Below are positions 185 through 54,660 of a DNA stretch of 64,000 nt, one piece after another; the stretch's first letter is position 1; every line of letters starts with the position of its first letter. The translations under genes were made by a program, and so were the position numbers. Under the pieces are notes generated by a model. That model did not search any database. It had not been told where the DNA came from and saw only the letters and a list, made by a program, of their open reading frames with translations. The stretch covers positions 24,611,398-24,675,397 of the forward strand of contig NC_092577.1 of the NCBI RefSeq assembly GCF_037975245.1. The letters run 5' to 3'. Source of the DNA: Apostichopus japonicus. Its lineage: Eukaryota; Echinodermata; Holothuroidea; Aspidochirotida; Stichopodidae.

Positions 185-958
185 TCCATGATGAAGCAGA
201 AGATGAAGCACGTAAACCACTTTATGAAGGTGCTCCACTAACTTTGGCAGAAAGTATGTTGATGATCCTGATGTTTTCAAGAAGCCATAGCATTACTGGT
301 GTTGCTCTGGTTGATTTGCTTGTGCTGATTTCAATCCAAAAGCCAAATATCTGCAAGACAACACTTCATGTGTTGAAAAAAATTTAGGGAACTCTAAAAA
401 TGTCTGTGAAATTCCACAAGTTCTGCAATTTTCGTAATTATTTACTAGGCTCCTCTGATTATGTTAGGTGCCCAGTATGCAGCAGTCATGTCTCAGAGAA
501 CAGTGGAATATCCTACTTTATAGAAATACCGATTATTAATCAAATTTGCATCTTAATGAAAAGGCAGGGATTTTATAATGACTTGCAGCATAGGTTCAAC
601 AGAAAGAAGAAAAACAGTGACAATATTTACGATGGAGAGCAGTACAACACGTGTTTTTGCTCCAGGAAAAGTTTTACATGAACCAAGAAACATATATCTC
701 TTATGTGGTATACAGATAGATGTCCCATCTTCAAATCATCAAAGGCCAGCCTTTGGCCTCTTTTTTCAATCAATGAGTTGCCGTATGAAGAACGGTTCCT
801 TAGAGAGAATTTGATTTACGCTGTATTGTGGCTTGGTTCACAACCGGCTGTGGGCACTTTTCTGAAACCATTCCTTGGTTCCATTAAAGAACTTGAAGAT
901 GGTGTAGAAGTTTACGCTCAGGACAAAAAGGAAATCGCATCAAAGGGCCACGTTCATT
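185..958 (+). pseudogene. Decayed tnp2-type (CACTA/EnSpm) transposase, 5' half
   Basis: Remnant of a tnp2-family transposase, the enzyme that cuts and pastes CACTA-type DNA transposons. Blocks line up in order with the better copy at 60.4-62.6 kb: a leucine-rich N-terminal block near 235-360, a CPVC zinc-type pair followed by YFIEIPI (about 470-535), an IYDGEQY motif near 625-645, then FKSSKASLWPL and the LWLGSQP...FLKPFLGSIKELEDGVEV stretch (703-920). The blocks lie in different frames with stops between them, so this is a pseudogene. The first catalytic-type DG motif upstream of the FKSSK block is altered. The coding stretch stops at LINE copy 1, which inserted after base 958; the remainder resumes after base 5880. 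The N-terminal limit is uncertain because the window starts nearby. Family assignment rests on motif order and the second copy, not on a database search. Confidence 0.7.
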
Positions 959-1174
959 GGCAGTTGGCTTTCGTGGAGTGCGGACGTGTTTTTCGCTCTC
1001 GCTCTTCATCTGTTACAGCTGTTTTTGTACTGTGCTGTGCTATACTTCCCGCCAGGCGGGTGTGATAGCTTGTGTTCGTGTGTTTTCCTCAGTTCGTATA
1101 TCGTTTGTTGTTTCACTATCCGGTCTTTTGTTTGTTTTGTGTTACTCCCCTGTGGCCTAGCCACCTTCGGTATC

Positions 1175-2317
1175 ATGGCATCGCGCCGTGATTCTCGGAT
1201 AGTTAAGTTGTCGTTCACCGGTGAACAAGCTGTTCCACCGGTGCAAGTTTTTAGTATTTTGAAGAGCAAGGGTGTTGTTGTGCCTGGAGAGGTTGATGCT
1301 TTGCAAGCTCTCCAGGGTCGTAATACGTACGATTTACGTTTTACCAGTGACGTGGCCCGTCAGAAAGGGGTCACTTTGCTGAGTAACGTCGAGGGGATGA
1401 CAGTTACTCCATACGAGCGATCCGTATGGGTAACTATCATCCACGTAGGACTAGAGGTGCGGCAGGAACTTGTCGTAACGGTTTTGGGTCGGTTCGGGGC
1501 TGTCAAGGCTGCCAAAATGTGCTCCTATGCACAAGCCCCTGGGGTGTTGAACGGGCACCGACAGGTTCGGATCGACCTGAAACAGGACATTCCCTCCTTC
1601 CTGTTTATAGCAGGGCACAAAGCCCACGTGCGGTATCCCGGTCAGCCCCGTACCTGCTTCAGGTGTGGGGAGACCGGGCACGAAGCCAAGGGCTGCCCAA
1701 ACAAGAAATGTGGGCGCTGCCTTCGTCTTGGGCATGATAGCACCGCTTGCCCAAACGAGGTTGTGTGTTCACTATGTGGGAAGGAGGGACATGTCTTTCG
1801 AGCTTGTCCCTCCTCTTATGTCTCTAGGACTAAGAGTGGGGGTAAGTCAAGTTCCGACGCACCTAGTACTTCACGAGAGGAGGGGGAATCTGGTGGGATT
1901 TTACCCTCCCCTGCACCTGGTTCACCCTCCCCCGTCGTTGCAGACCCCAACCCCGTGCCCGCACCGAGAAAGTCTCCACCAGCTTCCCCCACCAACTCGT
2001 CCAGTTCCGTCCCCAGTCCGCCGCCGGTATCGCCAGATCCGGAGGCTTTGTCTGACGGAGAATCGGTGGTCATCGATTCTCCGGAGGTTCTGTCCGACGG
2101 CGACTCCGGGGACTCGGTGGTCATCGGGTCTCCGGAGGCTCTGTCTGACAGCGACTCCGGGGGCTCGGTGATCGTCGAGCCAAAACGTGCCACTGGGACG
2201 AGCTGGTACGACGAGATGGGGGAACCCTCTCTAAAAAGGTCGGCCTCAAGTGACGACTCGGACGACGATATGTCGTCTAGAGCGCGCTTGAAGCTTACAG
2301 AATCGTCGTCGGCGTAG
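1175..2317 (+). CDS. LINE ORF1 protein (RRM-like plus three CCHC knuckles), intact
   Basis: A 380-residue ORF1 product, expected to bind the element's RNA and form the retrotransposition particle. The start is the ATG at 1175 (MASRRDSR), which copies 2 and 3 share; the frame is open further upstream but that stretch is 5' UTR. Residues about 80-150 look like an RRM-type fold (WVTIIHVGL ... VRIDLKQDIPSFLFIAG). Three zinc knuckles follow: CFRCGETGHEAKGC, CGRCLRLGHDSTAC and CSLCGKEGHVFRAC. The tail is Pro/Ser-rich, then an acidic block with three LSDG/SVVI-type modules (copies 2 and 3 have two). ORF2 begins 20 nt after the stop. No disabling change is visible. Confidence 0.9.
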   Translation: MASRRDSRIVKLSFTGEQAVPPVQVFSILKSKGVVVPGEVDALQALQGRNTYDLRFTSDVARQKGVTLLSNVEGMTVTPYERSVWVTIIHVGLEVRQELVVTVLGRFGAVKAAKMCSYAQAPGVLNGHRQVRIDLKQDIPSFLFIAGHKAHVRYPGQPRTCFRCGETGHEAKGCPNKKCGRCLRLGHDSTACPNEVVCSLCGKEGHVFRACPSSYVSRTKSGGKSSSDAPSTSREEGESGGILPSPAPGSPSPVVADPNPVPAPRKSPPASPTNSSSSVPSPPPVSPDPEALSDGESVVIDSPEVLSDGDSGDSVVIGSPEALSDSDSGGSVIVEPKRATGTSWYDEMGEPSLKRSASSDDSDDDMSSRARLKLTESSSA

Positions 2318-2337
2318 TTTTGCCCCATTGCCCTCTC

Positions 2338-5300
2338 ATGGCCCATACATTTTCAGTTGCCACTTTGAACGTGAATGGCATGAGGGATCATCGCAAGCGC
2401 AGTCGCATTTTCCAATATTGTATTTCAATGGAGGTCGACTGCGTTTGCCTGCAAGAAACACATATTTTGGAAGAAGATGTCCCTCTATGGGCTTATGAGT
2501 GGGGTGGTGGGCTGCATGCTTCGTTTGGTTCGTCTTCATCCTGTGGCACTGTCATCCTTCTGTCACCTCGTCAGGCGGGTTGTGCCACTAGGGTGGAGAC
2601 GGATCACGAGGGCCGATTGGTTTGCATTCTTTTCAAGTATCCACAGGGTAACATCTCCCTCTGCAATGTGTATGCTCCCAATCGGCCTTCTGCTAGACGA
2701 GAATTTTTTAACACGCTGCCTTCCTTTGTTCCTGGTAGTGCACCATGTGTCATGGTCGGAGACTTTAACTGTGTCGCAGACTCGGGTCTTGACAGACTCG
2801 GGGCTTCTGTGTCTGCTAGTCCTGACGCTGGGATCACAGAATTGGAAAGATTCACTTCGGCCCACCTTTTAGCCGATGTCTGGAGGCATATGCACCCGTG
2901 TTGTACGGTGTATACGTGGGTGAGGCCTAACGGAGAAGATGCCTCCAGGATAGATCGAGTGTATGCGCCCGTAAGTTTTACATTTTCGGGTTGCGAGACG
3001 CTCAGCTGTCCGCTCTCTGACCATGACACTGTGGTAGCACGTTTTGTTTTGCCTTCCATTTTCCCCATCGGGCGGGGCCTATGGAAGCTTAACTGTCGGA
3101 TTCTTGGCGAGGCAGAGTTCCGCCAGGGTTTCGAGACCAGGTACAAAGGATGGCAAACATTGAAGCCGGCCTTTGCTTCTACATCCCAGTGGTGGGATGA
3201 TGTCAAGTTGCGCATCAAACGCTACGCAATTCAGTATTGCGTGACCCGCGCAAGGCGTCGAAGAGAAAAATTCTCGAAGCTGTGCGCGGAGGTGAAGTTT
3301 GGCGACCCTTCGGCTGTCATCGCTTTGCAGACTTATCTCGATGAAAAGTACCACGGTGCCCGCGTCAGGGCCCGTGTCGAAGCGGTGGAAGCCGAGGAGC
3401 GCCCTTCACTGAGGTTTTACCAGTCCGTTAGCTCATCGGCAGGTGACAGACGCGTCCCGTCTGTGCGCGCTACTGATGGGACCGTGGTTAGTGACCCTCA
3501 CGGCATTGTCCGCGTATATAAAGAGTATTATTCGAGTTTGTTTACGCGTGGCAATGTCGACTTGTCGGCACAGGCTAAATTATTGAGGGGAATCTCAAAA
3601 ACCGTTCCCCACGATGTCAATGATATTTTGGGGGGGGGGGGGGAATTACCACTGTTGAGCTTTGGAAGGCGCTTTCGAAGATGAAGAATGGCAAGTCCCC
3701 GGGTTCGGACGGGCTTCCGAGGGAGTTGTACCGAACCTTCTGGGCAATAATAGGACCCGACATCAGAGCCGTCTTCGAGGACGCCTTCCAAAACGGACTG
3801 TTAAACCAAAGATTACTTTGCTGCCCAAGTCTGGGGACTCCTTGGATCCCCGTAACAAGCGTCCGATCACCTTGTTAAATGTGGACTACAAGTTGCTGGC
3901 TAAGGCTTTGTGCAACCGCCTTGCACTGGCTATGCCGCATCTTGTGGGTGATCTCCAGACTTGTGCAGTGAAGGGTCATTGCATCCAGCAGAACTTGTGG
4001 TTGATGCGCGACTTGACCGACTTTGTTATTGAGCGTGATCTGCCATGTGCATTGGTGTCTCTGGACCAGCAGAAGGCCTTTGACATGGTGGATCGCGGGT
4101 TTTTAATGAACGTATTGGAGACGTTTCAGTTGCACCCAAATTTTCGTAAATGGATTTCTGTTTTGTATGAAGAAAGTTTCAGTTCTGTTATCGTAAATGG
4201 GTTTTGTTCGGAGGTTTTTAACGTAGAGAGGGGGGTGCGCCAGGGGTGCCCTCTGTCTCCATTACTTTATGTTTTGTTTAGCGAGTCCCTCTCTCGTCTT
4301 TTGGAAAGGGACTCCAGACTTGTTCCATTCGTTGTGCCAGGGGGTGCCAAAGTGAAATGCGCTCAATATGCAGATGACGTGACATGTGTTGTTTCGAGTC
4401 TGGGCTCCTTTCGCGCACTCTCGCAGGATTTATCTATTTTTGAGAGAGCTACCGGGGCGAAGTTGAATCCAGAAAAGACAAAGGGCCTTCGTCTTGGTAG
4501 CTGGAGATACAGAGACTTACCATTCGGTGCGTCGTGGTCGGATCAGAATATCAAAATTAATGGTATATGGTTCGGCTACGATGCACCTGGTGATGTCACC
4601 TGGAGCGAGAGGGCTGAGGTATTTGAGAGCAGGCTCGAAACCTTTGGCACCCGCTGGCTTTCGATCCTAGGGAAAGTCACCGTAGTTAATCGTTTTGTTT
4701 CGCCCATCTTGTGGTACCCGGGCGCGGTGTATCCAATTCCGCGTCGCGTCCTGGTGCGGTTGGAGAGAGCGATATTTTCATTTATTTGGTCGGGTGGTAC
4801 AGAGCTTGTCAAAAGGGCGGTCATGTACCAAAAACTGGAGAAGGGTGGGTTAGGGGTGGTTCATCTGGGAAGTAAGTTAACTTGCTTGTTATTTAAGCAG
4901 TTGTTTGTAGCGGTAACTGACCCAGGGTTGCCTTGTTCATATTTTGTACGTTTTTGGGGCGGTTTGCACCTGCGTCGATGGGTCCCGGCGCTGTTTAGCA
5001 ACAGAGAACCGCATAGTAGTACTCCAAACAGGGCGGTGCGTGTCATTTGCTCCGCTCTGATTGAGTTGCCCCCTGTTGACCTGTCACAGCCGGCCCTCGT
5101 TCACAGTTCGTTGCGGGATAGGGCCTTGAATGCAATTTTTGTACAGGGACGTCATCCTGTCGAAGTATGGCGTTCGGTGCATTCAAGGCTGAATGGTTGC
5201 AGGCTCCGTGACCTTGCATGGAGAATTGCACACGGTGCCTTGGTGACCAATCTGAAAAGGTATCACTGGCGACTGGGTGATGGACTGTGCCCGAGGACCG

Positions 5301-5719
5301 GCTGTGACAGCTTAGAGAGTACTGCCCATGTTTTTTGGCATTGCCCCTTTGTTTTGAACTTGTGGGAGTGGTTTCAGTCCTGGACCGACCGTTTAACGGG
5401 AGACCGTTCCTGGTCGGTAGGACAGGGTTTTGTTTTGTATGGATTAGATCCTCCAGTTTGTTCCGTTGCTGTGTTGCAGCGTATTATTTATGTTTGTTCT
5501 GTTGTAAAAAAACTTATTTGGAGGAATAGATGTGATGTTGTTTTTAGGGGGAAATTTGCCAGTTGGCAGGCAGTCCTGGAGGCGGTGAAGTCTGACATTC
5601 GCCTTCAGGTTGAAGGCGATTTTCGCCGTCTATCTAGGGCTGCCTTTTTTGGACGGTGGTGTGCTGGGGAAGGGTGTTTTGTTTCGCTGCGTGCTGGTCG
5701 TCCTTTTGTAGTTTTTTAA
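2338..5719 (+). pseudogene. LINE ORF2 (APE endonuclease-reverse transcriptase), frameshifted, copy 1
   Basis: ORF2 of about 1,120 residues, which nicks target DNA and reverse-transcribes the element. I take the ATG at 2338 (MAHTFSVATLNVNGMR) as the start; 2320 is only a TTG. An APE-type endonuclease opens the protein (LNVNG, QETH, MVGDFNC, SDHDTV). The RT core follows with ITLLPKSGD, SLDQQKAFDMVD, GVRQGCPLSPLL and the catalytic YADD (about 4368-4379). A CCHC-type C-terminal knuckle lies near 5290-5345. Two frame breaks disable it. A 14-G run at 3630-3643 replaces the GGGGGGCGG of the sister copies. A 16-base deletion near 3811 then moves translation into a third frame. The rest is open to the stop at 5719. 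Confidence 0.9.
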
Positions 5720-6920: not shown

Positions 6921-7095
6921 GCAAATTGTACAACAACATTAACATTAGACCATGTTTCGATGGTTAAAAATCAAGGTGATGTTTTTTTTTTCCTAGCTCA
7001 GCAATGTACTTCACATGTATGATATGAAAAAAAAACATCACCCTCATTTTTAACCATCGAAAGATGGTCTAATTTTAATGTTGTTCTGCAATTTC
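6921..7095. repeat. Long imperfect inverted repeat (hairpin)
   Basis: Two arms of roughly 65-70 bp (about 6921-6991 and 7027-7095) are near-perfect reverse complements around a loop of about 35 nt. The pairing runs through AACAACATTAA / TTAATGTTGTT, TAGACCAT / ATGGTCTA, CGATGGTTAAAAAT / ATTTTTAACCATCG and GATGTTTTTTTTTC / GAAAAAAAAACATC. The arms differ at a few positions and by a short indel. It could be a foldback or MITE-type insertion, the terminal repeat zone of the adjacent CACTA-type element, or a transcribed hairpin. Nothing in it codes. Confidence 0.85.
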
Positions 7096-7346: not shown

Positions 7347-7893
7347 CATGAAAAGGAATTGGTATGTATTTTGAGGCTGGGGGATTGAGTGGAGAAAGAG
7401 GTGTGGTAGTAATTGATATACGTAATTACAGTAAATTCCAAATTGTACTTCGTTATCAACAATGGAGCATTAGCCTCAAGTCAGTGGTGTAGTGCAAGGA
7501 ACACCCTTACTGGTTTTAATTATGAATTCACAATTGACATTCCATGTGTCATACTTATTTTGGCTTATTAACAAAAGATGGGTTTCTCCCTCTATTTTGA
7601 TATTCTTTCTATTGTTTGGGTGATACATTTCTGTATGATGACTGTAAATAAATTTCATTTCACTACATGTTCTTTGTGATGAGGTGTCTTCTTTCTAAGA
7701 TGTTGTTAACTTACATTAGATATTGTTTGTCAGTCTCTGAAAAAAATGTTGCCCTGTTTTCCTCCTATTCCCCAAGGTGCACAAGCATCTTGATTTCATT
7801 GAAGATCATTTGAAGTAACATTTCACTGGAAGCCTGCATTTTTATTTCTACTGTAACTATTTCTCATTGTAAGTGTGCCTCATGATTATTCAG
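7347..7893. other. No gene seen between tandem repeat and BEL element
   Basis: AT-rich spacer. Only short open frames occur and none shows a recognisable domain. Confidence 0.6.
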
Positions 7894-8054
7894 TGTGTGA
7901 GGTCATGCCCTCTGTTTGGTCATTCCTGCATGTGGCATTCAGAGTTCCAGGGACCTCACCTGCATTCCAGATCTGCGTAGAGTCAGTTGTGTGACCAGAT
8001 ACTTTATATATACACCTTATACTATACTTGTGCCAGGGTGTGGCAGCCAGTGCA

Positions 8055-8265
8055 ATCCATACCAATCGCTTCTCGGCCTTTTGGCTAAGATCATGTGTAG
8101 TATCTGTTCCCTTTCGGGAATGGTGATGCACACCTGACGATGATCACACAGTCACAGTCCCGATGCAAGGGGACTGGGGTTAGAAGCGGAACAGTCGTTC
8201 AGTAGTTTGGTTTTCGTGCCCAGGTTCATTCCTGGGCGACTTTTTCTTAAAGTATCCATACCAAT
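8055..8265 (+). mobile_element. U2 snRNA-headed SINE-like retroposon with 12-bp direct repeats
   Basis: A 187-bp body (8067-8253) is flanked by the perfect direct repeat ATCCATACCAAT at 8055-8066 and 8254-8265. The last AT of the left repeat is also the first AT of the U2 sequence. The first 45 nt (8065-8109) match the 5' end of U2 snRNA; the rest (8110-8253) is unrelated to U2. That second part contains three hairpins: TTCCC/GGGAA (8107-8120), CAGTCCC/GGGACTG (8155-8176) and GCCCAGG/CCTGGGC (8218-8237), followed by TTTTTCTT. There is no poly(A) tail. Known precedent: snRNA-headed SINEs (SINEU) in crocodilians. The SINE reading is inference from the flanking repeats and composite structure; a one-off chimeric retropseudogene is the alternative. 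Confidence 0.75.
8065..8109 (+). ncRNA. U2 snRNA 5' domain fragment (retroposed, not a functional U2 gene)
   Basis: Forty-four of 45 positions match the 5' end of metazoan U2 as I know it; the one difference is A to T at position 30. The stem-loop I region and the GTAGTA branch-point recognition sequence are kept. Stem-loop IIa, the Sm site and the 3' stems are absent, so it cannot act as a normal U2. Confidence 0.85.
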
Positions 8266-8897
8266 ACTGTGTGACTTTGTCACGGGATTTTCGTTTATAT
8301 AGGAGTAAAGGATACCAAAGAGGTACGATTTTACTGTTGCGGTTTACGGAGTTTTGTGATGCTTGCGATTTACTGATTATTTGTGATATATTTGTACGTT
8401 AATAGAGAATTTATATATATATATATTTTTGGTACTTTTCACGGATTGAATAGATGCGTAATCCGGTAGAAGCCTTAGTGTCCTCTTTTCTAACCTACAT
8501 CTCTACACCACTACGGCTACAGTGAAAACTCTCTACATCAGAATTTAAGCTACCTTGCATTCATACTCGTAATATGTGTATATGAGTTTAAGTGTTGAGC
8601 GGTTATGTAATGTGAGTGTATGCGTAGTAAGTACTATTAATTGCATTACTATTATTCAAGCCTAGCGATGCGTAAGCTAGACCGAACCACTTATTTTCGT
8701 ACTAGCTCAACACATGCATAATGCCGTTAACGTCTTTTTGTAAGTCTCACCATACGATTCGAGAGTAGTAGTTTTTGATTGTATAAAACTCCACATGTAT
8801 TACGTTGTACACGATATACCTTACTATGAGTATGACCGAGCTCTTAACGAAATCTAGTAGCAAGGGATCAGTTCAAAATTAAGCAACTGATGCTGCA

Positions 8898-9095: not shown

Positions 9096-9889
9096 TCGAT
9101 CTCTTGCTTGGCATCTTTTCAGTAAACTTCAGAAAAGATTAAAAGGTGATATTGTATATGCTACAGATTATTGTGCTTTCATGCAAGATATCATCTCCAA
9201 TGGATTTGCAGAAAGGGGTTCCTGTTGGTGAAATGACTTCACAAAACGGTATTGTTAATTTCATACCACACCATGGAATCTATCATCCAAAGAAACCTGG
9301 CAAAATTCGTGTGGTGTTCGATTGTAGTGCTACGTTTAAGTGTGTCTCACTTAACGATTATTTGCTAACAGGACCTAATTTGACAAAGACACTTGTTAGG
9401 GTTCTTTGCCGGTTTCGACAAGAGAGTGTTGCATTTATGGGTCATATTGAAGCAATGTGTTATAAATTTAAGGTAAATAAGGAACAAAGGGATCTTCTAC
9501 GTTTCCTTTGTTGGAAGAATGGTGATTTTACTACTGAGCCTGTAGAGTATCGTATGACAGTTCACCTCTTTGGAAGAAAGGAGGTCTCAAATTTCAGAAT
9601 TGTGATGAGAGTCTGTTCCCTCAGAGGATCAAGCTGGAGCTCCTCAGGATTTCAATCTTTGTTTGGATCCCTTACCCATAGAAAGAGTATTATGTGTACG
9701 CTGGTGTCAGATGTATTTCAATTTAAAATCACCTTAAAGGATCAGCCCCTTACTAGGCGTGGAATTATTTCCACTGTGAATTCTGTAAACGATCCTTCAG
9801 GCTTTGTTTCTGCAGTTGTCCTTATAGAGAAGCAGATTTGTGAAAGTCTGTGTAATAATCATATGGCCTGGGATTTGCCCTCTGTCTGA
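9077..9889 (+). pseudogene. BEL/Pao reverse transcriptase remnant
   Basis: Two overlapping frames give RT pieces. The first is SLAWHLFSKLQKRLKGDIVY...FMQDIISNGFAERG (9098-9225), the start of the BEL-type RT. The second is GIYHPKKPGKIRVVFDCSAT...LNDYLLTGPNLTKTLVRVLCRFR (9275-9425), with the VVFDCSA block that precedes the catalytic core. Then comes MGHIEAMCYKFKVNKEQRDLLRFLCWKNG, where the expected catalytic D of the 'DIexMF' type motif has become GHIEAMC. No YxDD motif is found; the region after 9560 is degraded. It is not a working polymerase. Confidence 0.75.
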
Positions 9890-11890: not shown

Positions 11891-12076
11891 AATTGCTACA
11901 AGGAGCCAGCAGGTTTTTACAGCTTCATTTATGGTTAAGTGCGTGTTCTGAATTTCATTTATATTATGTTTATTGTGTTTGACAAAATGTTTCCATTTGT
12001 ATTTCGTGTTTAACTTTAATTTCGTGTATTTCAATGGTATAAAATTAATTAAATTCATTTTGAGAGGGCATGTAAG

Positions 12077-12443
12077 TGTGTGAAGTCATGCCCTCTGTTT
12101 GATCTCTGTGACTTTGTCACGGGATTTTCGCTTATAAAAGAGTAAAGGATTCCAAAGAGGTACAATTTTACTCTTGCGGTTTATGGAGTTTTTAATGTGT
12201 AATTGTAGAAACTATTTCAGTTGCGTCTTTGAGGTTTGCGTTGTATTTTCTAGTCTTTATGTGCTATTTGGTATGTTTTGTGATGCTTGCGATTTACTGA
12301 TTATTTGTGATATATTTGTACGTTAATAGAGAATTTATATATATATATTTTTGGTACTTTTCACGGATTGAATAGATGCGTAATCCAGTAGAAGCCTTAG
12401 TGTCCTCTTTACTCGCCTACATCTCTACACCACCACGGTTACA
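12077..12443 (+). repeat. BEL/Pao 3' LTR
   Basis: About 367 bp, beginning TGTGTGAAGTCATGCCCTC and ending ACGGTTACA. It is preceded by a purine-rich GAGAGGG stretch, a possible polypurine tract. It matches the 5' LTR outside the indels described there. Confidence 0.85.
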
Positions 12444-19279: not shown

Positions 19280-19522
19280 AGTTAATTACGTAAAGGGTAC
19301 TTCCCCCTACTCATGTGATAATCATTGTCCAATCATATGCATGTTTTACGTGACGGGTTTCCGAGGGTGGAAAATTAGAGGAAGGAGAAGAAGAAGTGTG
19401 CTTCGAAGTTGTAAGAAAGGAAGAGGAAATAAATCAGTTATAACAATCAAGATTCTACTAAGCCTACTTTATTGGTTATTTCGTAAAGGACAGGAAAAAA
19501 CCACCCCAAACGAACAAACACA
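19280..19522 (+). repeat. Ty3/gypsy 5' LTR (matching part)
   Basis: Runs from AGTTAATTACGTAAAGGG to AACAAACACA. The first ~25 bp expected from the 3' LTR is missing or diverged. Confidence 0.85.
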
Positions 19523-20775
19523 AAATGGTGCAGGAGCTGAGCTTTCGGCACATCTGCGGAACTTTATTCAAGCCGTATCCTACCGTACAGTTCAACCAAA
19601 CGTCTGACTAGCTTAGGTAGACGAAACTACGCTATAACGATGTAGCCTAGCCGAGACTACGTCTGTAACCATCAGCCTAGCTGCGATTGATGTAATGTCC
19701 GTCTTCAGGCATTTAAATAAGCCTAGAATCTTTGGGACTGAAACACACTTTCCATCATTTGTGAGTATGGCCATCAAAAGTTTAGGCTATCCCATGACCA
19801 ACCACTGATATTCGATGAACTTAGCCTAGCCTACGCACATCCAAATTAGCCATCCAGTGACGAAGCCACCATCGATCTCATTTTTTTGCTTAGAGTGTAC
19901 AACGCAACTTAGGCTCGAGACATCGTTAACGAATCCTATCATAGCCTATCGGTCGTAGGCCTACGTACATTGTCAGCCATAGCCAACCGTAAGTTCGTAA
20001 CGTAACTGGCATCGGACTGAAATTTAAAAGGCAAATTATAGAACCTCATTGATGACGTAGATTGGATTTTTTTTTCGACCTTATATTCACTGTGGAGCCG
20101 ATGACCCTGTGGCCAACCAAAGCCTAGCTCTACACTAACCTTCAGCTTGAATTCACCATAGCCTAGCCTATGCTTTCAACACAGAGCCATGAAGCCTAGC
20201 CCTTACTGGAGCTTACAGCACTGTAACCTGGAATAGCATACTGCAGCCTACTACACTAATGCAGCCTGAAGCATTGAAAAAACCTAGCCAACGCAGTCTT
20301 ACAAGGGAATTCAGCTCAACAATCTAGCCTGCCTGGACTAATCCTATTCGAAAGAAAACACGTTGAAGACTGTAGCATGGGAAAGTCCCTGCAGCAATTT
20401 CTAACCGTTCCTGAACTTTGGTATTAGCCAACATCTACCAACAGTTTTCTACCGGTGGCCTACCATACCAATACCTTCTACTCGAAAGCCTATGTGCAAG
20501 AAACTACAAACCAGTCTAACTGAAAAATTTATTTATAGTATCGTCAGTCGAGTTGTAACCTTACATAGCCTACAACAGATATTTGATACACTGGTCAATC
20601 TTTTCATGTTACTTGGTGTTGCATGCACATTAATCAAGGCAAATATTGGTCTGCCATACTGAAGGGCCTAGCTCTAACTTGTGCAAATTTTCAGATTTGG
20701 CCAAGCTTTGTCTCACAATTCACTTTGAGTTTTGTGGTATGTTTGATGTGAATTTATTTTGGGTATTAGTCGTTA
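19523..20775 (+). other. Ty3/gypsy 5' internal leader, non-coding
   Basis: About 1.25 kb between the 5' LTR and the first gag block. It is rich in AGCCTAGCC/TAGGCCTA words and has no supportable frame. This is long for a leader and may contain an older insertion. Confidence 0.5.
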
Positions 20776-27534: not shown

Positions 27535-27776
27535 AGTTAATTACGTAAAGGGTACTTCCCCTACTCGTGTGATAATCATTGTCCAATCATATGCATGTTT
27601 TACGTGACGGGTTTTCGAGGGTGGAAAATTAGAGGAAGGAGAAGAAGAAGTGTGCTTCGAAGTTGTAAGGAAGGAAGAGGAAATAAATCAGTTATAACAT
27701 TCAAGATTCTACTAAGCCTACTTTATTGGTTATTTCGTAAAGGACAGGAAAAAAACACCCCAAACGAACAAACACA
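27535..27776 (+). repeat. Ty3/gypsy 3' LTR (part matching the 5' LTR)
   Basis: About 242 bp matching the 5' LTR with about six differences. The full 3' LTR probably starts at 27511, directly after ATTAGGGGGA. Confidence 0.85.
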
Positions 27777-30494
27777 ACAATAGCAAACTTTGTCATCCTA
27801 TAAATTTTGAGGTATCTGCAAGACTACAAGTGAATGTGCCCCATGGGTATGACCTGTAGCAAGTCTAAGTGACTTTACATGCTTCCTCCATGGGTGAGAT
27901 ATATTTGCTCTTTTTGGTAATGTACTTCAAAAGCATATCTGCTCTGTACATAAGGTAAGTTTAGGAAAATTACACCTTCTCATCACCTATCATGAAATAC
28001 AGAAATATATCCACCAAACACACATTTTAAAGGATATTTAAAAATAAATTTTTAGGAATAAATTGGTCAGTACTGTGGTTACTTCTTTGAAGGAGGAACA
28101 AGTGGGAAAGAAGATAAAAGTAACTTTTCTGTTTGATAAACTTTTATTTCTCACAGTGAGTTTAAGAGCACTTTCAAACAGTAAATAAAACATACAGATA
28201 AAAATAAATGCAGGCCTACAGTGCAAATGCCTTTAATAGTTCTAGCGACTAGAAAATGAAAAGTAAGTTATTTAAACTATAAGCTCTACATATAAATGTA
28301 AATATAACTTAGGACTCCAGAACACATGTATACTACCACAGCCTCCACAGGTTATGCTTTCTTTGTGTTCCTCATGAAAGCTTATGTGAATGTACACCTA
28401 TAAAATTACAATACTAATAATGACCAGATACCTTAACAGCTCCCATGGAAGAGTTGTGGCGACTGGAATAAAAGGAAAAATCTTGTCTCTCTTTCACTTT
28501 TCAATATGAAAGACATCTGCCATAAACTTTCTTAATATCACATCAGAAAGAAGACACAATGAAGCACACAATAACATCTTTACACATGAACAGAAACAAT
28601 AAATATATCTACTGAAACACAGTGCAGCAATAGCAACAAAGCTGACTTATTGGCTGCACACCATGCAAACATTTTATAAAGACATTACCTTAGTTTGGAA
28701 AAACACCAGATTGCAAACTCCCTGCCCACCACTCCTCCCACCCAAAAAAGGACTATATTTACATTTCTACATAAGAATATATTACAGATGTCAACAAAGG
28801 CTTGGACACAACAAAAAATACACTAAATACAGCCCCTGCCAATTGAACAGTGTGGACTACCTTGATCACAAATTCAGTGTTAAGAATTCAATAAGTGAGG
28901 CAAATATTACAAGTTCAATTGACAGGAATACCCAGCATAGACATGACACAATTTTTTTCACCCAGACGGAATGCAACTGAATTCAACATTGCATGATGCA
29001 CAGCAAAGACAACCATATATTTGCATACGCATACTGCACAGTACAATGCTGGTTACGTGTTAAAGGTCTGCAACCTTGATCACATTAATAGGCACCATAT
29101 CTTACATGATTACATTTACATGGCAAGTTTTTAATACAATGCTGGCCACTTCACCATCCTGTACACACAAAAGGGCAAGGAATTAGACTACTCAGAGAAA
29201 ATTGCTTCTCAGATTCCAGAGTGAAATTACACAGCAAATACTTTTGAATTCAAAATACAAGAAAAGAGCATAACACAAGCTATGTACTCAATGTTTACAT
29301 AACATGATCTCTCATGTTTAGACTCCTTGCCAGGTTAATCATTCAAACCTAACTCCCTATTATATTTGGCAGTGATAAAATGTAAACAGCTGTTTCACAG
29401 ACACAAGAGATGTACTTAATCAAATTAATCTCAACCCCCTTCCTAAATAACAGAAAAAAAGAAAGAAAAGAAATTGAGGATGGTTTACAACTTAACATGC
29501 ATTTGTTCCAGGATGTTGTTCCATAACTAACAACAATTAAAATGAAGAATGGCTTTATGAATACATCTTTAACTGATACTGCAGCAGAACGTGCTCAGCT
29601 TCAAAGAATCTGTGGCTGGCCGTATACTGTGCCATATACTACACATTGGCAAGATTGAAAATGATCAGGAAATTGTTAGGATGAAAGGGCTGCACTGCTC
29701 TTTAACTTGCTGATACACTGTTCCCTTTTCCCTGAGATTTTATGGTGAATATAAATTGGGTAATAAAAAAATGAGGCAATTAAACCCATGGAAACATGTG
29801 AAGGGACTTGGGTAACAATAAGGAAACTAAATCAGCAACAAAAGGCTGAAGGTGAAACAAACATAGGAACTAGAAACATGAGTACAAATTAAAAAGCTTG
29901 TAATATACACACCAAAAAAATTCAAATGGTTAACACATAGACACTTGTCTGTTACCGGTCAGTTTTTCTCTAAATGCAAGTATTCATGTTGTCATCGTGC
30001 TTGTAAAACAGCTATAAACCACAGTACATTGTAGTTGCACACACTGCACAATTTAGCTACACCATGAAAGAAAATGCACACACACACTCACAAACCAGAT
30101 TACTTAAAGAGTGATATAGTACTTTATAATTGATTTCACTGAGTGTTATGAAAGGTTCATACAATCATGCCAAATTGCTTATCAAAATATTGTTGGGAAA
30201 GACTTCTCATAAACCATCCATGCTACAGTACCATACTGTATACTGCTTATGATACAAGAAATTATACAAGAGTACACTGGACTCAGTGACAGTCCTATTG
30301 CACTTGTCAGTTGAATGAGTCACTCCACTAATCTTGGACAAGGCACACAACTGCATTGACAAAACATGTACCTTGATGCACACATCAGTCAGTTCTGTGC
30401 ATAACACTTTCGTTAAGATCAGGGGCTGTCACAAAAAGCTTGAGTAAGCTGGCTCAGTAATATTATTTCTACCTTGAAGTTCAATTTGGCGCTT
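27777..30494. other. No gene seen; probable 3' flank of the minus-strand BRCT gene
   Basis: AT-rich DNA with only short frames. It shares the 19-mer TTTTAAAGGATATTTAAAA (28025-28043) with 19226-19244 left of the Ty3 element. It lies downstream of the minus-strand BRCT reading frame and could include its 3' UTR; no clear polyadenylation site was chosen. Confidence 0.5.
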
Positions 30495-33141: not shown

Positions 33142-36100
33142 ATGGCCCATACATTTTCAGTTGCAACTTTCAACGTCAATGGCATGAGGGATCATCGCAA
33201 GCGCAGTCGCATTTTCCAATATTGTATTTCAATGGAAGTCGACTGCGTTTGCCTGCAGGAAACACATATTTTGGAAGAAGATGTCCCTCTATGGGCTTAC
33301 GAGTGGGGTGGTGGGCTGCATGCTTCGTTTGGTTCGTCTTCATCCTGTGGCACTGTCATCCTTCTGTCACCTCGTCAGGCGGGTTTTGCCACTAGGGTGG
33401 AGACGGATCACGAGGGCCGATTGGTTTGCATTCTATTCAAGTATCCACAGGGTAACATCTCCCTTTGCAATGTGTATGCTCCCAATCGGCCTTCTGCTAG
33501 ACGAGAATTTTTTAACACGCTACCTTCCTTTGTTCCTGGTAGTGCACCATGTGTCATGGTCGGAGACTTTAACTGTGTCCCAGGTCTTGACAGACTCGGG
33601 GCTTCTGTGTCTGTCACAGAATTGGACAGATTCACTTCGGCACACCATTTAGCCGATGTCTGGAGGCATATGCACCCGTGTAGTACGGTGTATACGTGGA
33701 TGAGGCCTAACGGAGAAGATGCCTCCAGGATAGATCGAGTGTATGCGCCCGTAAGTTTTAAATTTTCGGGTTGCGAGACGCTCAGCTGTCCGCTCTCTGA
33801 CCATGACACTGTAGTAGCACGTTTTGTTTTGCCTTCCATTTTCCCGATCGGGCGGGGCCTATGGAAGCTTAACTGTCGGATTCTTGGCGAGGCAGAGTTC
33901 CGCCAAGGTTTCGAGACCAGGTACAAAGGATGGCAAACATTGAAGCCGGCCTTTGCTTCTACATCCCAATGGTGGGATGATGTCAAGATGTCAAGCGCAT
34001 CAAACGCTTCGCAATTCAGTATTGCGTGACCCGCGCACGGCGTCGAAGAGAACATTTTTCGAAGCTGTGCGCGGAGGTGAAGTTTGGCGACCCTTCGGCT
34101 GTCATCGCTTTGCAGACCTATCTCGATGAAAAGTACCACAGTGCCCGCGTCAGGGCCCGTGTCGAAGCGGTGGAAGCCGAGGAACGCCCTTCACTGAGGT
34201 TTTACCAGTCCGTAAGCTCATCGGCGTGTGACAGACGCGTCCCATCTGTGCGCGCTACTAATGGGACCGTGGTTAGTGACCCTCACGGCATTGTCCGCGT
34301 ATACAAGGATTATTATTTGAGTTTCTTTACGCGTGGCAGTGTCGACTTGTCGGCACAGGCCGATTTATTGAGGGGAATCTCAAAAACCGTTCCCCACGAT
34401 GTCAATGATATTTTGGGGGGCGGAATAACCACTGTTGAGCTTTGGAAGGCGCTTTCGAAGATGAAGAATGGCAAGTCCCCGGGTTCGGACGGGCTTCCGA
34501 GGGAGTTCTACCGAACCTTCTGGGCAATAATAGGACCCGACCTCAGAGCCGTCTTCGAGGACGCCTTCCAAAACGGACTGTTAAACCAAAGTCAACGTCT
34601 GGGCATGATTACTTTGCTGCCCAAGTCTGGTGACCCCTTGGACCCTCATAACAAGCGTCCAATCACCTTGTTAAATGTAGACTACAAGTTGTTGGCTAAG
34701 GCTTTGTGCAACCGCCTTGCACTGGCTATGCCGCATCTTGTGGGTGATCTCCAGACTTGTGCAGTGAAGGGTCATTGCATCCAGCAGAACTTGTGGTTGA
34801 TGCGCGACTTGACCGACTTTGTTATTGAACGAGATCTGCCATGTGCATTGGTGTCTCTGGACCAGCAGAAGGCATTTGACATGGTGGATCGGGGGTTTTT
34901 AATGAATGTATTGGAGACGTTTCACTTGCACCCGGTTTTTCGTAAATGGATTTCTGTTTTGTATCAGTACAGTTTCAGTTCTGTTATCGTAAATGGGTTT
35001 TGTTCGGAGGTTTTTAACGTGGAGAGGGGGGTGCGCCAGGGGTGCCCTCTGTCTCCATTACTTTATGTTTTGTTTAGCGAGTCCCTGTCTCGTCTTTTGG
35101 AAAGGGACTCAAGACTTGTTCCATTCGTTGTGCCAGGGGTGCCAAAGTTAAGTGCGTTCAATATGCAGATGACGTCACGTGTGTTATTTCGAGTCTGGGC
35201 TCCTTTCGTGCCCTCTCGCAGGATTTATCTATCTTTGAGAGAGCTACCGGGGCGAAGTTGAATCCGGAAAAGACAAAGGGCCTTCGCCTTGGTAGCTGGA
35301 GATACAGAGACTTACCATTCGGTGCATCGTGGTCGGATCAAAATATCAAAATTAATGGTATATGGTTCGGCTGTGATGCACCTTGTGATGTAACCTGGAA
35401 CGAGAGGGCTGAGGTTCTTGAGAGCAGGCTCGAAACCTTTGGCACCCGCTGGCTTTCGATCCTAGGGAAAGTCACCGTAATTAATCGTTTTGTTTCGCCC
35501 ATCTTGTGGTACCCGGGCGCGGTGTAGCCAATTCCGCGTCGCGTCCTGGTGCGGTTGGAGAGAGCGATATTTTCATTTATTTGGTCGGGTGGTACAGAGC
35601 TTGTCAAAAGGGCGGTAATGTACCAAAAACTGGAGAAGGGTGGGTTAGGGGTGGTTCATCTGGGAAGTAAATTAACCTTTTTGTTATTTAAGCAGTTGTT
35701 TGTAGCGGTAACTGACCCAGGGTTGCCTTGTTCATATTTTTTACGTTTTTGGGGCGGTTTGCAACTGCATCGATGGGTCCTCGCGCTGTTTAGCAACAGA
35801 GAACCGCATAGTAGTACTCCAAACAGGGTGGTGCGTGTCATTTGCTCCGCTCTGATTGAGTTGCCCCCTGTTGACCTGTCACAGCCGGCCCTCGTTCACA
35901 GTTCGTTGCAGGATAGGGCCTTGAATGCAATTTTTGTCCAGGGACGTCATTCTGCCGAAGTATGGCGTTCGGTGCATTCAAGGCTGAATGGTGGCAGGCT
36001 CCGTGATCTTGCATGGAGAATTGCACACGGTGCCTTGGTGACGAACCTAAAAAGACACCATTGGCGATTGGGTGATGGACTGTGCCCGAGGACCGGCTGT

Positions 36101-36515
36101 GACAGCTTAGAGAGTACCGCTCATGTTTTTTGGCATTGTTGCTTTTGTAGTAAACTTATGGGAGTGGTTCCAGACCTGGACCGACCGTGTTACGGGAGAC
36201 CGTTCATGGTCGGTAGGACAGGGCTTTATTTTATATGGGGTGGACCCTCCAGTTTGTTCGGTTGCTGTTTTGCATCGCATTATATTTGTTTGCTCTATTG
36301 TAAAAAAACATGTTTGGCGGAATAGATGTGATGTGGTTTTTAGGGGGAAATTTGCCAGTTGGCAGGCAGTCCTGGAGGCGGTGAAGTCTGATATTCGCCT
36401 TCAGATTGAAGGCGATTTTCGCCGTTTATCTGGGCCTGCCTTTTTTGGACGCTGGTGTGCTGGGGAGGGGTTTTTCGTTTCGCTCCGTACTGGTCGTCCT
36501 TTTGTGGTTTTTTGA
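33142..36515 (+). pseudogene. LINE ORF2 (endonuclease-RT), multiply broken, copy 2
   Basis: The same endonuclease-RT protein as copy 1, in at least four frame segments. The endonuclease part is open from 33142 but has small in-frame deletions near 33582 and 33614. A short insertion near 33988 (GATGTCAAGATGTCAAGCGC) shifts the frame. RT resumes at about 34026 and keeps SLDQQKAFDMVD and GVRQGCPLSPLL. A one-base loss in the G run near 35139 shifts the frame just before YADD, so the catalytic motif is not read in frame. At 35525-35527 TAT has become TAG. A further shift near 36140 separates the C-terminal part, which ends at 36515. Confidence 0.9.
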
Positions 36516-36689
36516 ATGTTTGAGTGGGGGGTTGGGCGTTTTGTCTCTGCAGGTCGGCGGGCGTATGTTTTATTGGCTCGCTTGACCTGAGTTTCGTTTT
36601 TCAGAATGGGATGTTTCGGTAGTGCCGTTTGGCCGTGACGTTTTATATCCCGCACGGCAGGTCACGTAAAAAGCACTCCTTCTCATTTT

Positions 36690-48409: not shown

Positions 48410-49106
48410 ATGGCCCATACTTTTTCAGTTGCCACTTTCAACGTCAATGGCATGAGGGATCATCGCAAGCGCAGTCGCATTTTCCAATATTGTATTTCAA
48501 TGGAAGTCGACTGCGTTTGCCTGCAGGAAACACATATTTTGGAAGAAGATGTCCCTCTATGGGCTTATGAGTGGGGTGGTGGGCTGCATGCTTCGTTTGG
48601 TTCGTCTTCATCCTGTGGCACTGTCATCCCTCTGTCACCTCGTCAGGCGGGTTTTGCCACTAGGGTGGAGACGGATCACGAGGGCCGATTGGTTTGCATT
48701 CTATTCAAGTATCCACAGGGTAACATCTCCCTTTGCAATGTGTATGCTCCCAATCGGCCTTCTGCTAGACGAGAATTTTTTAACACGCTACCTTCCTTTG
48801 TTCCTGGTAGTGCACCATGTGTCATGGTCGGAGACTTTAACTGTGTCCCAGACTCGGGTCTTGACAGACTCGGGCTTCTGTGTCTGCTAGTCCTGACGCT
48901 GGGATCACAGAATTGGACAGATTCACTTCGGCACACCATTTAGCCGATGTCTGGAGGCATATGCACCCGTGTAGTACGGTGTATACGTGGATGAGGCCTA
49001 ACGGAGAAGATGCCTCCAGGATAGATCGAGTGTATGCGCCCGTAAGTTTTAAATTTTCGGGTTGCGAGACGCTCAGCTGTCCGCTCTCTGACCATGACAC
49101 TGTAGT
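48410..49106 (+). pseudogene. LINE ORF2 endonuclease part, copy 3, cut by copy 4
   Basis: The endonuclease begins at the ATG 48410 (MAHTFSVATFNVNGMR) and keeps QETH and MVGDFNC. One G is lost from the run near 48873 (GACTCGGGC versus GACTCGGGGC), shifting the frame. The remaining part (SASPDAGITELDRF, SDHDTV) is in the next frame and stops at the junction at 49106. Confidence 0.9.
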
Positions 49107-51886
49107 GCTTTTTACGTGACCCGTCATACGGGATACAAAACGTCACGGCCAAACGGCACTACCAAACCATCCCATTCTTACAAACGAACCTCAGGTCAAA
49201 GCGAGCCAAAAAAAGTACATACGCTCACCGACCTGCAGAGACAAAACGCCCAACCCCCCCCCACTGAAATATTAAAAAACTAGAAAAGGACGACCAGCAC
49301 GCAGCGAAACAAAACACCCTTCCCCAGCACACCACCGTCCAAAAAAGGCAGCCCTAGATAAACGGCGAAAATCGCCTTCGACCTGAAGGCGAATGTCAGA
49401 CTTCACCGCTTCCAGGACTGCCTGCCAACTGGCAAATTTCCCCCTAAAAACAACATCACATCTATTCCTCCAAATAAGTTTTTTTACAACAGAACAAACA
49501 TAAATAATACGCTGCAACACAGCAACGGAACAAACTGGAGGATCTAATCCATACAAAACAAAACCCTGTCCTACCGACCAGGAACGGTCTCCCGTTAAAC
49601 GGTCGGTCCAGGACTGAAACCACTCCCACAAGTTCAAAACAAAGGGGCAATGCCAAAAAACATGGGCAGTACTCTCTAAGCTGTCACAGCCGGTCCTCGG
49701 GCACAGTCCATCACCCAATCGCCAGTGATACCTTTTCAGATTGGTCACCAAGGCACCGTGTGCAATTCTCCATGCAAGGTCACGGAGCCTGCAACCATTC
49801 AGCCTTGAATGCACCGAACGCCATACTTCGACAGGATGACGTCCCTGTACAAAAATTGCATTCAAGGCCCTATCCCGCAACGAACTGTGAACGAGGGCCG
49901 GCTGTGACATGTCAACAGGGGGCAACTCAATCAGAGCGGAGCAAATGACACGCACCACCCTGTTTGGAGTACTACTATGCGGTTCTCTGTTGCTAAACAG
50001 CGCCGGGACCCATCGACGCAGGTGCAAACCGCCCCAAAAACGTACAAAATATGAACAAGGCAACCCTGGGTCAGTTACCGCTACAAACAACTGCTTAAAT
50101 AACAAACAAGTTAACTTACTTCCCAGATGAACCACCCCTAACCCACCCTTCTCCAGTTTTTGGTACATTACCGCCCTTTTGACAAGCTCTGTACCACCCG
50201 ACCAAATAAATGAAAATATCGCTCTCCAACCGCACCAGGACGCGACGCGGAATTGGATACACCGCGCCCGGGTACCACAAGATGGGCGAAACAAAACGAT
50301 TAACTACGGTGACTTTCCCTAGGATCGAAAGCCAGCGGGTGCCAAAGGTTTCGAGCCTGCTCTCAAATACCTCAGCCCTCTCGCTCCAGGTGACATCACC
50401 AGGTGCATCGTAGCCGAACCATATACCATTAATTTTGATATTCTGATCCGACCACGACGCACCGAATGGTAAGTCTCTGTATCTCCAGCTACCAAGACGA
50501 AGGCCCTTTGTCTTTTCTGGATTCAACTTCGCCCCGGTAGCTCTCTCAAAAATAGATAAATCCTGCGAGAGTGCGCGAAAGGAGCCCAGACTCGAAACAA
50601 CACATGTCACGTCATCTGCATATTGAGCGCATTTCACTTTGGCACCCCCTGGCACAACGAATGGAACAAGTCTGGACTCCCTTTCCAAAAGACGAGAGAG
50701 GGACTCGCTAAACAAAACCTAAAGTAATGGAGACAGAGGGCACCCCTGGCGCACCCCCCTCTCCACGTTAAAAACCTCCGAACAAAACCCATTTACGATA
50801 ACAGAACTGAAACTTTCTTGATACAAAACAGAAATCCATTTACGAAAATTTGGGTGCAACTGAAACGTCTCTAATACATTCATTAAAAAAACCGCGATCC
50901 ACCATGTCAAAGGCCTTCTGCTGGTCCAGAGACACCAATGCACATGGCAGATCACGCTCAATAACAAAGTCGGTCAAGTCGCGCATCAACCACAAGTTCT
51001 GCTGGATGCAATGACCCTTCACTGCACAAGTCTGGAGATCACCCACAAGATGCGGCATAGCCAGTGCAAGGCGGTTGCACAAAGCCTTAGCCAGCAACTT
51101 GTAGTCCACATTTAACAAGGTGATCGGACGCTTGTTACGGGGATCCAAGGGGTCACCAGACTTGGGCAGCAAAGTAATCATGCCCAGACGTTGACTTTGG
51201 TTTAACAGTCCGTTTTGGAAGGCGTCCTCGAAGACGGCTCTGATGTCGGGTCCTATTATTGCCCAGAAGGTTCGGTAGAACTCCCTCGGAAGCCCGTCCG
51301 AACCCGGGGACTTGCCATTCTTCATCTTCGAAAGCGCCTTCCAAAGCTCAACAGTGGTTATTTCGCCCCCCAAAATATCATTGACATCGTGGGGAACGGT
51401 TTTTGAGATTCCCCTCAATAAATCGGCCTGTACCGACAAGTCGACATTGCCACGCGTAAACAAACTCGAATAGTACTCTTTATATACGCGGACAATGCCT
51501 TGAGGGTCACTAACCACGGTCCCATCAGTAGCGCGTACAGACGGGACGCGTCTGTCACCTGCCGATGAGCTAACGGACTGGTAAAACCTCAGTGAAGGGC
51601 GCTCCTCGGCTTCCACCGCTTCGACACGGGCCCTGACGCGGGCACTGTGGTACTTTTCATCGAGATAAGTCTGCAAAGCGATGACTGCCGAAGGGTCGCC
51701 AAACTTCACCTCCGCGCACAGCTTCGAGAATTTGTCTCTTCGACGCCGTGCGCGGGTCACGCAATACTGAACTGCGTAGCGTTTGATGCGCAACTTGACC
51801 TCATCCCACCATTGGGATGTAGAAGCAAAGGCCGGCTTCAATGTTTGCCATCCTTTGTACCTGGTCTCGAAACCTTGGCGGAACTC
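49107..51886 (-). mobile_element. Tx1/L1-type LINE copy 4, 5'-truncated, nested antisense
   Basis: On the minus strand this begins at 51886 within the linker before RT (EFRQGFETRYKG) and runs to the 3' end GTAAAAAGC at 49107. It has ORF2 features of copy 1 (HPVEVWR, NGCRLRD, SLRAGRP), so it belongs to a different subfamily from its host. The 5' junction shares CTC (51884-51886) with the host, typical of microhomology at truncated LINE ends. No target duplication is present. Confidence 0.9.
49272..51841 (-). pseudogene. LINE ORF2 RT and C-terminal part, broken, copy 4
   Basis: RT reading from 51841 (KPAFASTSQWWDEVK) through ITLLPKSGDPLDP and SLDQQKAFDMVD. A change in an A/T run near 50885 shifts the frame. 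The next segment (50967-50719) ends at TAG in place of TAT just after GVRQGCPLSPLL. YADD and the following region are open from 50715, then another shift near 50200 leads into the C-terminal half with the CCHC knuckle, ending at 49272. Confidence 0.9.
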
Positions 51887-54116: not shown

Positions 54117-54275
54117 ATGTTTGAGTGGGGGGTTGGGCGTTTTGTCTCTGCAGGTCGGCGGGCGTATGTTTTATTGGCTCGCTTGACCTGAGTTTCGTTT
54201 TTCAGAATGGGATGTTTCGGTAGTGCCGTTTGGCCGTCACGTTTTATATCCCGCATGGCGGGTCACGTAAAAAGC

Positions 54276-54660
54276 ACAAGTATTGTCAACAGCTCTAGGC
54301 AATATTCGTGATACTGACAACTCAGAACTCATTTTTTTTTAAGATAAATGTTAAATCAGAATTTCATGATGTAAAGGGGGGAAAGCTCTTCAGACTAGAA
54401 GAGGTAATCTCATTCTTTTAGAGAGAAAAGAATATCCAATTAATATATATTAAGACTAAATTTATACGTGCCAGTTTGCTCTCTCGCAATTGAAAAAGAT
54501 CCAGGGGTATGAAAACTTTGGAAAGTCTTAAACTTTTCAGCAGTTAAGCTAAATCTACCATATGTCATCCTCTAGCAAATATTGCGCCAAAACAATCCGT
54601 TATCTCTAAGTATTCAGTAGTCATATGTGTTCTTAAGCAGTATTACAGAACGTTGTAACC
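54276..54660. other. No gene seen; short spacer
   Basis: Spacer between LINE copy 3 and the 3' end of the minus-strand three-exon gene. Confidence 0.5.

Follow-up and report, generated by a model that had tools for sequence, protein, structure and literature searches.

A U2-headed SINE family in the sea cucumber Apostichopus japonicus, with members that occupy U2 genes where U2-resident LINEs insert

Short interspersed elements (SINEs) usually carry an internal RNA polymerase III (Pol III) promoter. The promoter of the U2 small nuclear RNA (snRNA) gene lies upstream of the transcript, so a SINE head made of U2 should carry no promoter. In 2015, Kojima is said to have described crocodilian SINEU, whose heads reportedly come from the 5′ end of U1 or U2 and were added repeatedly, and to have inferred a long interspersed element (LINE) of the Tx1 clade, Tx1-Mar, as their partner. 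To our knowledge, no account has so far been given of what transcribes snRNA-headed SINEs and renews their heads. In their accessible text, one paper lists SINEU as a SINE class (PMC5753468) and another, treating SINEU and SINE28 jointly, mentions the genomes of birds, crocodilians, and mammals (PMC8010984). The literature covered, in its accessible parts, describes neither a SINE within U2 genes nor an echinoderm SINEU; the key SINEU paper lies outside that coverage, and absence is not thereby shown. Here we describe a U2-headed SINE family in the sea cucumber Apostichopus japonicus, one copy of which occupies positions 8065–8253 of a 64,000-nucleotide stretch of contig NC_092577.1 (hereafter the window, numbered from its first letter). 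We consider it probable that this family has its sources inside U2 genes, is mobilized by U2-specific LINEs of the Tx1/Keno type, and takes both promoter and head from U2.

The window copy, like the other window features given with it here, reads on the forward strand and is a composite. Its head (8065–8109) consists of nt 1–45 of U2 and is identical at 45 of 45 positions to the host's own U2 genes; the Rfam U2 model (RF00004) matches 8065–8138 at 52.8 bits (cut-off 46), and this is the sole match at gathering threshold in the window. A preliminary description, made from the letters alone, had counted 44 of 45 matches to U2; against the host's own U2 the count is 45, because the host carries ATCATGTG where the Rfam consensus has AUCAAGUG. 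The remaining 144 nt (8110–8253), common to the aligned family, form the body and tail. The predicted fold within and around this part includes a variable mini-hairpin (8107–8120), a hairpin GCCCAGG..CCTGGGC, and a weak terminal hairpin. The last two bases, GT (8252–8253), correspond to U2 nt 36–37 or may be borne by the element, and are absent from the pre-insertion target. The hairpins reported in the preliminary description are borne out by the folding energy of the 189-nt element (minimum free energy −71.9 kcal/mol, z −3.96), which none of 200 shuffles equaled. The body motif AGAAGCG, set against CGCTTCT in the head, varies among copies as TTAGAAGCGG, TTGAGAGCGG, or CTGAGAGCGG, and in the predicted fold the form TTAGAAGCGG is paired to the 5′ end of U2.

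The direct repeats that flank this copy, also recognized at the outset, are perfect 12-bp target-site duplications (TSDs) of sequence ATCCATACCAAT (left, 8055–8066; right, 8254–8265), and the last two bases of the left one overlap the first two of U2. As had been proposed, the copy lies inside a long terminal repeat (LTR), the 5′ LTR (7892–8521) of a BEL/Pao-like element, three pieces of which (7892–7921, 8267–8355, and 8351–8521) pair with pieces of a 3′ LTR without the SINE at 12075–12443. Between the two, an open frame at 9143–9886 has a partial match to Peptidase_A17 (residues 204–245, E 2e-5) and is a remnant of BEL/Pao pol. Four related LTRs elsewhere in the genome (L126–L129, among 46 matches listed) are uninterrupted at the site and hold a single, slightly diverged copy of the target; the window's own 3′ LTR was ruled out as an empty site, the neighboring stretch being missing from it. 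Because head, body, and repeats are bounded and four LTRs are empty at the site, the insertion is real and its edges are known.

The window copy is one member of a large family. Across the genome (671 Mb, 35 contigs), a 35-nt stretch of the body has 1,765 matches (912 + 853) at up to 3 mismatches and the 26-nt tail has 235 exact ones, with none for either control (reversed, in the case of the body). A DNA search, in which 40 of 2,503 first-look candidates were scored, reported 43 matches that are 91–100% identical. Forty-three copies, that of the window among them, can be aligned from head through body to tail; most start at U2 nt 1, and a few lack up to 7 nt. Among 62 ends selected by their tails, 31 begin within positions 1–10 (13 at position 1), 17 at 11–45, 5 at 46–60, and 9 later. 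Of 115 element ends, 76 yielded TSDs. After removal of 32 of these rows (21 loci in which an insertion already included recurs in amplified or duplicated form, plus 11 tandem or nested rows, namely two at L006, seven at L052, and one each at L032 and L085), 44 independent insertions remain, with TSDs of 8–19 bp (median 13), and flanks and TSDs differ between insertions, as anticipated for copies with repeats of their own. The element is thus short, repeated, bounded by TSDs, and constant in its composite structure, as SINEs are. Against Rfam at E values up to 5, the body gave U2 plus two sub-threshold matches only.

These counts also bear on whether the window copy is a lone chimeric pseudogene of U2 that arose by template switching, an outcome that the preliminary description had set against a SINE family and for which it named a single genomic copy as the sign. 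The exact 23-mer across the window's U2-to-body junction occurs in the window alone, which would suit such a chimera; it is unique because the mini-hairpin at this point varies between copies. The shared junction foreseen at 8109/8110 therefore stands as a junction region common to the 43 copies and falls as a letter-identical one. As 43 aligned copies agree in head, body, and end and the body has well over a thousand matches, the copy number refutes the pseudogene, whose probability we put at practically nil, and the family reading holds. A second head length occurs as well: U2 nt 1–50 joined directly to GGGAATGG has 19 exact places in the genome, at least 14 of which are inverted pairs or flanks of one amplified insertion. 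Head lengths of 45 and 50 would be compatible with more than one heading event. Inverted SINE pairs some 2–3.4 kb apart were seen on contigs C2 (13.10 Mb), C3 (5.85 and 25.41 Mb), C7 (5.90 Mb), C16 (10.52 and 23.43 Mb), and C19 (27.87 Mb). The arms fetched from them have one flank and TSD in common, and the pairs probably derive from one SINE insertion that was multiplied within the terminal inverted repeats of a DNA transposon.

A point not foreseen in the preliminary description is the presence of SINE copies within U2 genes. With the U2 covariance model, 46 full-length matches were scored among 40,968 first-look candidates, a lower bound; 42 of them lie in a tandem array on C16 (31.015–31.156 Mb, 645-bp unit) and 4 on C15. 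The SINE tail continued by U2 from nt 36 is matched exactly at 6 places, every one within the C16 array region (31.007–31.135 Mb). One more match, with a single mismatch, falls in a diverged copy of U2 on C20, and the remaining 21 of the 28, which have 3 mismatches, are ends of LINEs that adjoin U2. The fetched loci L108, L110, and L111 hold three, one, and one SINE-bearing U2 genes, respectively; L110 contains two nested insertions, and at L109 a truncated SINE copy stands behind a 3′ end like that of LINE family C (see below). The resident bodies rejoin U2 at nt 36–38. The U2 match that precedes them is exact for 45 nt in two copies and for 42 (one base changed) and 40 nt in two others. In a 5′-truncated copy it extends over 53 nt, the body beginning at CCTGACG, and this copy is given a complete U2 head by its position.

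The U2 surroundings of these copies are intact. Compared with a SINE-free unit, the 250 bp upstream of the five SINE-bearing genes are identical at 250, 250, 250, 250, and 249 positions, and the 220 bp downstream are identical at all 220 in each of the five (193 of 220, ungapped, at L109). The upstream 250 bp had no BLAST match in the flanks, some 200–400 bp each, of the dispersed loci L001–L099. Among dispersed copies, the best matches to the full-length array copies reach 99.5, 99.5, and 98.9% identity, at L006; two of the array copies are closest to L006 (188 of 189) and to L057 (187 of 189), the one at L111 slightly less so, with the L110 body at 97.4%. In one further U2 gene, seen on the reverse strand at 855 of L104 and 1500 of L105, another insertion ends about 19 bp before the start of U2 and takes the place of the region normally found upstream (79 of 250 identical).

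How the family came by its head can be approached from these copies. One account has the head added once, by a template jump from the element's RNA to U2 snRNA, with dispersed copies that have an internal or neighboring promoter as the sources and the insertions in U2 as a by-product. Jumps of R2 to U12 snRNA are reported in the available part of PMC3414825, and the U2-resident copies are few, with 6 exact tails beside the 1,765 body matches. The head, however, runs from +1 to nt 45–50, the place of the insertion site, and a jump onto U2 would more likely start from the 3′ end of U2. The window's 189-nt copy also has runs of four T at positions 15 and 147 and of five T at 177, which should stop Pol III before the 3′ end and make it an unlikely source of SINE RNA. 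Together with the intact upstream regions of the resident copies, these points leave a one-time jump decidedly unlikely, and we favor sources inside the U2 genes.

The same genes harbor LINEs. Four U2-resident families, A to D, rejoin U2 in the region where the SINE does, and are presumptive members of the Tx1 clade; the SINE has the same U2 site and a similar target motif. Family A (L106) exits U2 after nt 30 and re-enters at nt 38. Family B (L107) exits after nt 50 in both copies begun there, a point that equals the length of the head in one group of SINEs. Its single 3′ end read resumes U2 at GTATC, nt 36, as do those of C (L103) and D (L130). From one read each, the 3′ junction is ..AAAGT|ATCTG in B, C, and D and ..AAAAGAA|ATCTG in A. 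A further LINE at L103 leaves U2 after nt 31 and is not counted for C. Families A and B have an open second reading frame (ORF2) with an apurinic endonuclease-type (APE) domain (PF03372) and a reverse transcriptase (RT; PF00078), and thereby show the features of Keno, namely APE, RT, and insertion at a conserved U2 site. C and D are known from RT matches and 3′ ends, the endonuclease domains having been read in A and B. In one RT search, 19 of 77 matches fell inside the U2 array: 6 in B (100% identity), 5 in C (53–54%, one with two stops), 2 in D (49%), and 6 in A (36%), the letters being assigned by identity.

Other LINEs were considered as partners and set aside. Sixty loci with the SINE tail (62 tails; taken in list order among 100 listed of the 235, excluding loci already in the set) proved by eye to be full or 5′-truncated SINEs, with no recognizable LINE. 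The window's own LINE has a 3′ end without a SINE match. This element, which we presume to be Tx1-like, has CCHC, APE, and RT domains at 908–5719 and recurs at 35612–36675, 49106–50174, and 53214–54276; its 131 genome matches listed crowd on C17 (15.4–25.7 Mb), C11 (13.1–14.5 Mb), C16 (26–31 Mb), C12 (about 21 Mb), and C7 (16.4 Mb), with single ones on C3 and C23, which perhaps reflects a regional or centromere-like target. The dispersed sister families at L114–L122 have 3′ ends that are poly(A) or otherwise unlike the SINE. One of these families (L114–L120; RT 48% identical, poly(A) ends) has tRNA genes downstream in 2 of 7 loci, six tRNA-Gly at L117 and three tRNA-Leu at L120, and is possibly associated with tRNA genes.

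The enzyme might instead come from another U2-targeting LINE, such as Utopia, which has a restriction-like endonuclease, with the life style of the SINE otherwise the same. In its accessible text, PMC4640811 lists Utopia from sea urchins and a starfish and gives it a 3′ flank in common with Keno, and no LINE with the 3′ hairpins of the SINE was found among the LINEs read, Utopia not having been searched for. The same text states that crocodilian Utopia rarely has recognizable TSDs, against TSDs of 8–19 bp in the 44 SINE insertions, and the array contains LINEs A and B, whose open frames are long. We therefore think a Utopia-type enzyme unlikely and prefer the APE-type families as the source of the protein.

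The target sites of the dispersed copies resemble the site in U2. The pre-insertion target of each of the 44 independent insertions, read from the 5′ flank and placed by the TSD, matches U2 nt 38–41 (ATCT): A38 occurs in 39 of the 44, T39 in 27, C40 in 19, and T41 in 26, against 13.9, 12.6, 6.4, and 12.6 expected from the eight bases upstream (binomial P from 8e-15 to 3e-5, for positions picked from 22 tabulated). A38 is found in 26 of 30 copies chosen by their tails and in 13 of 14 others, and no target signal appears at U2 nt 36–37 in the 44 insertions. GT, the bases at nt 36–37, is present in 39 of 44 copies versus 4 of 44 targets (11 and 3, respectively, among the 14 copies not chosen by tail), and therefore travels with the RNA. 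We infer a putative nick at GT|ATCT, which is where LINEs A to D join U2.

Taken together, the sequence data suggest the following cycle. Source copies would occupy U2 genes at the place where U2-specific LINEs of the APE-type Tx1/Keno kind insert, and there the U2 promoter would drive a chimeric RNA, U2(1-45/50)-body-(A)nGU-U2(38-end), that starts at U2 +1 and crosses from the head into GGGAATGGTGATG or CCTGACGATGATC. The LINE protein would take this RNA, nick DNA at GT|ATCT, prime there, and copy back to the U2 5′ end. Insertion in U2 genes would make new sources, truncated copies being re-headed by the 5′ half of U2, and less strict insertion at loose matches to ATCT would yield the dispersed copies, one of them in the LTR in the window. 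We lean, with rather less assurance than for U2 genes as sources, toward the broader proposal that the SINE renews its own promoter and head by site-specific insertion into U2, so that truncated copies become chimeric genes and the same enzyme scatters copies at ATCT.

Several observations weigh against sources in U2 genes and U2-specific LINEs as partners. The dispersed targets prefer ATCTT to the ATCTG of U2 (T at nt 42 in 25 of 44, the G of U2 in 5), and the GT ending may be intrinsic to the element instead of a read-through into U2. The sampling also bears on this point: 60 of the 99 dispersed loci were selected for an exact match to a tail whose last bases are AAAAAG, so that the G is given by the selection and the T is not. 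The four array copies compared form one subfamily that is at most 95% identical to the other fetched copies; the re-headed junction at L108 has, with 1 mismatch allowed, a single genome match, itself, and thus no progeny; and none of the 19 exact matches to the U2 1–50 junction, among which a parent of that group was sought, lies in the array. Compared with LINEs A and B, the parts read of C, the D 3′ end, and the window LINE, the SINE body and tail gave chance matches of 10–11 nt at best. Since body and tail are without real similarity to these LINEs, the 3′ signal common to SINE and LINEs would be at most (A)4-5GT plus a hairpin. The comparison with LINE 3′ ends that the preliminary description had called for thus yields a short common ending, (A)4-5GT, with families B to D and no common 3′ untranslated region.

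Elsewhere in the window, a 68-nt inverted repeat with a 36-nt spacer lies at 6923–7094, and a 220-nt direct repeat (19304–19523 and 27558–27777; 98% identical, 8.25 kb apart) is possibly another LTR pair. COX1 fragments occur on C29 (14.7–31.2 kb) besides C35, perhaps as a rearranged mitochondrial copy. One contig has a COX1 that makes sense when translated with the echinoderm mitochondrial code (table 9), Asn standing at conserved positions such as NHKDIG; table 14 gives a like reading but continues beyond the stop. The protein, together with about 23 large contigs, points to a sea cucumber.

Copies in U2 genes at the LINE site suggest how a promoterless jumping element could borrow a promoter, and a SINE that renews its promoter in this way, if real, would explain why snRNA-headed SINEs exist despite snRNA promoters that lie outside the transcript. 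The array itself is partly chimeric, with at least 6 SINE-bearing sites and the 19 LINE RT matches beside its 42 scored full-length U2 matches, a matter of consequence for U2 dosage and for the automated annotation of snRNAs. The findings extend SINEU-like elements to an echinoderm and link SINEs with the short internally deleted elements (SIDEs) of site-specific LINEs. The family resembles SINEU, as the latter is reportedly built, in that its head derives from the 5′ end of a spliceosomal snRNA. It differs in its echinoderm host, in having copies inside U2 genes under the U2 upstream region with U2-resident LINEs as likely partners, and in a dispersed target motif that resembles the U2 site.

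The SIDEs of Drosophila R2, and the R2/R1 hybrid SIDEs, are likewise nonautonomous and inside a multicopy RNA gene, as described in the available part of PMC3414825. According to the same text they rely on co-transcription and on the machinery of a site-specific LINE; the U2 SINE has the corresponding location inside a host RNA gene, its co-transcription being putative. SIDEs consist of LINE ends and shed the host gene by a ribozyme (PMC3414825), whereas the U2 SINE keeps the 5′ end of its host gene as a head, is not derived by internal deletion from any of the LINEs sampled, and has reached well over a thousand locations beyond that gene. Keno and Utopia target the same U2 region, and crocodilian Utopia also enters loose U2-like sites, as the accessible text of PMC4640811 has it. 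LINEs A and B resemble Keno by their APE endonuclease and U2 site. Unlike Keno and Utopia, which are autonomous (PMC4640811), the U2 SINE is a noncoding element of 0.19 kb.
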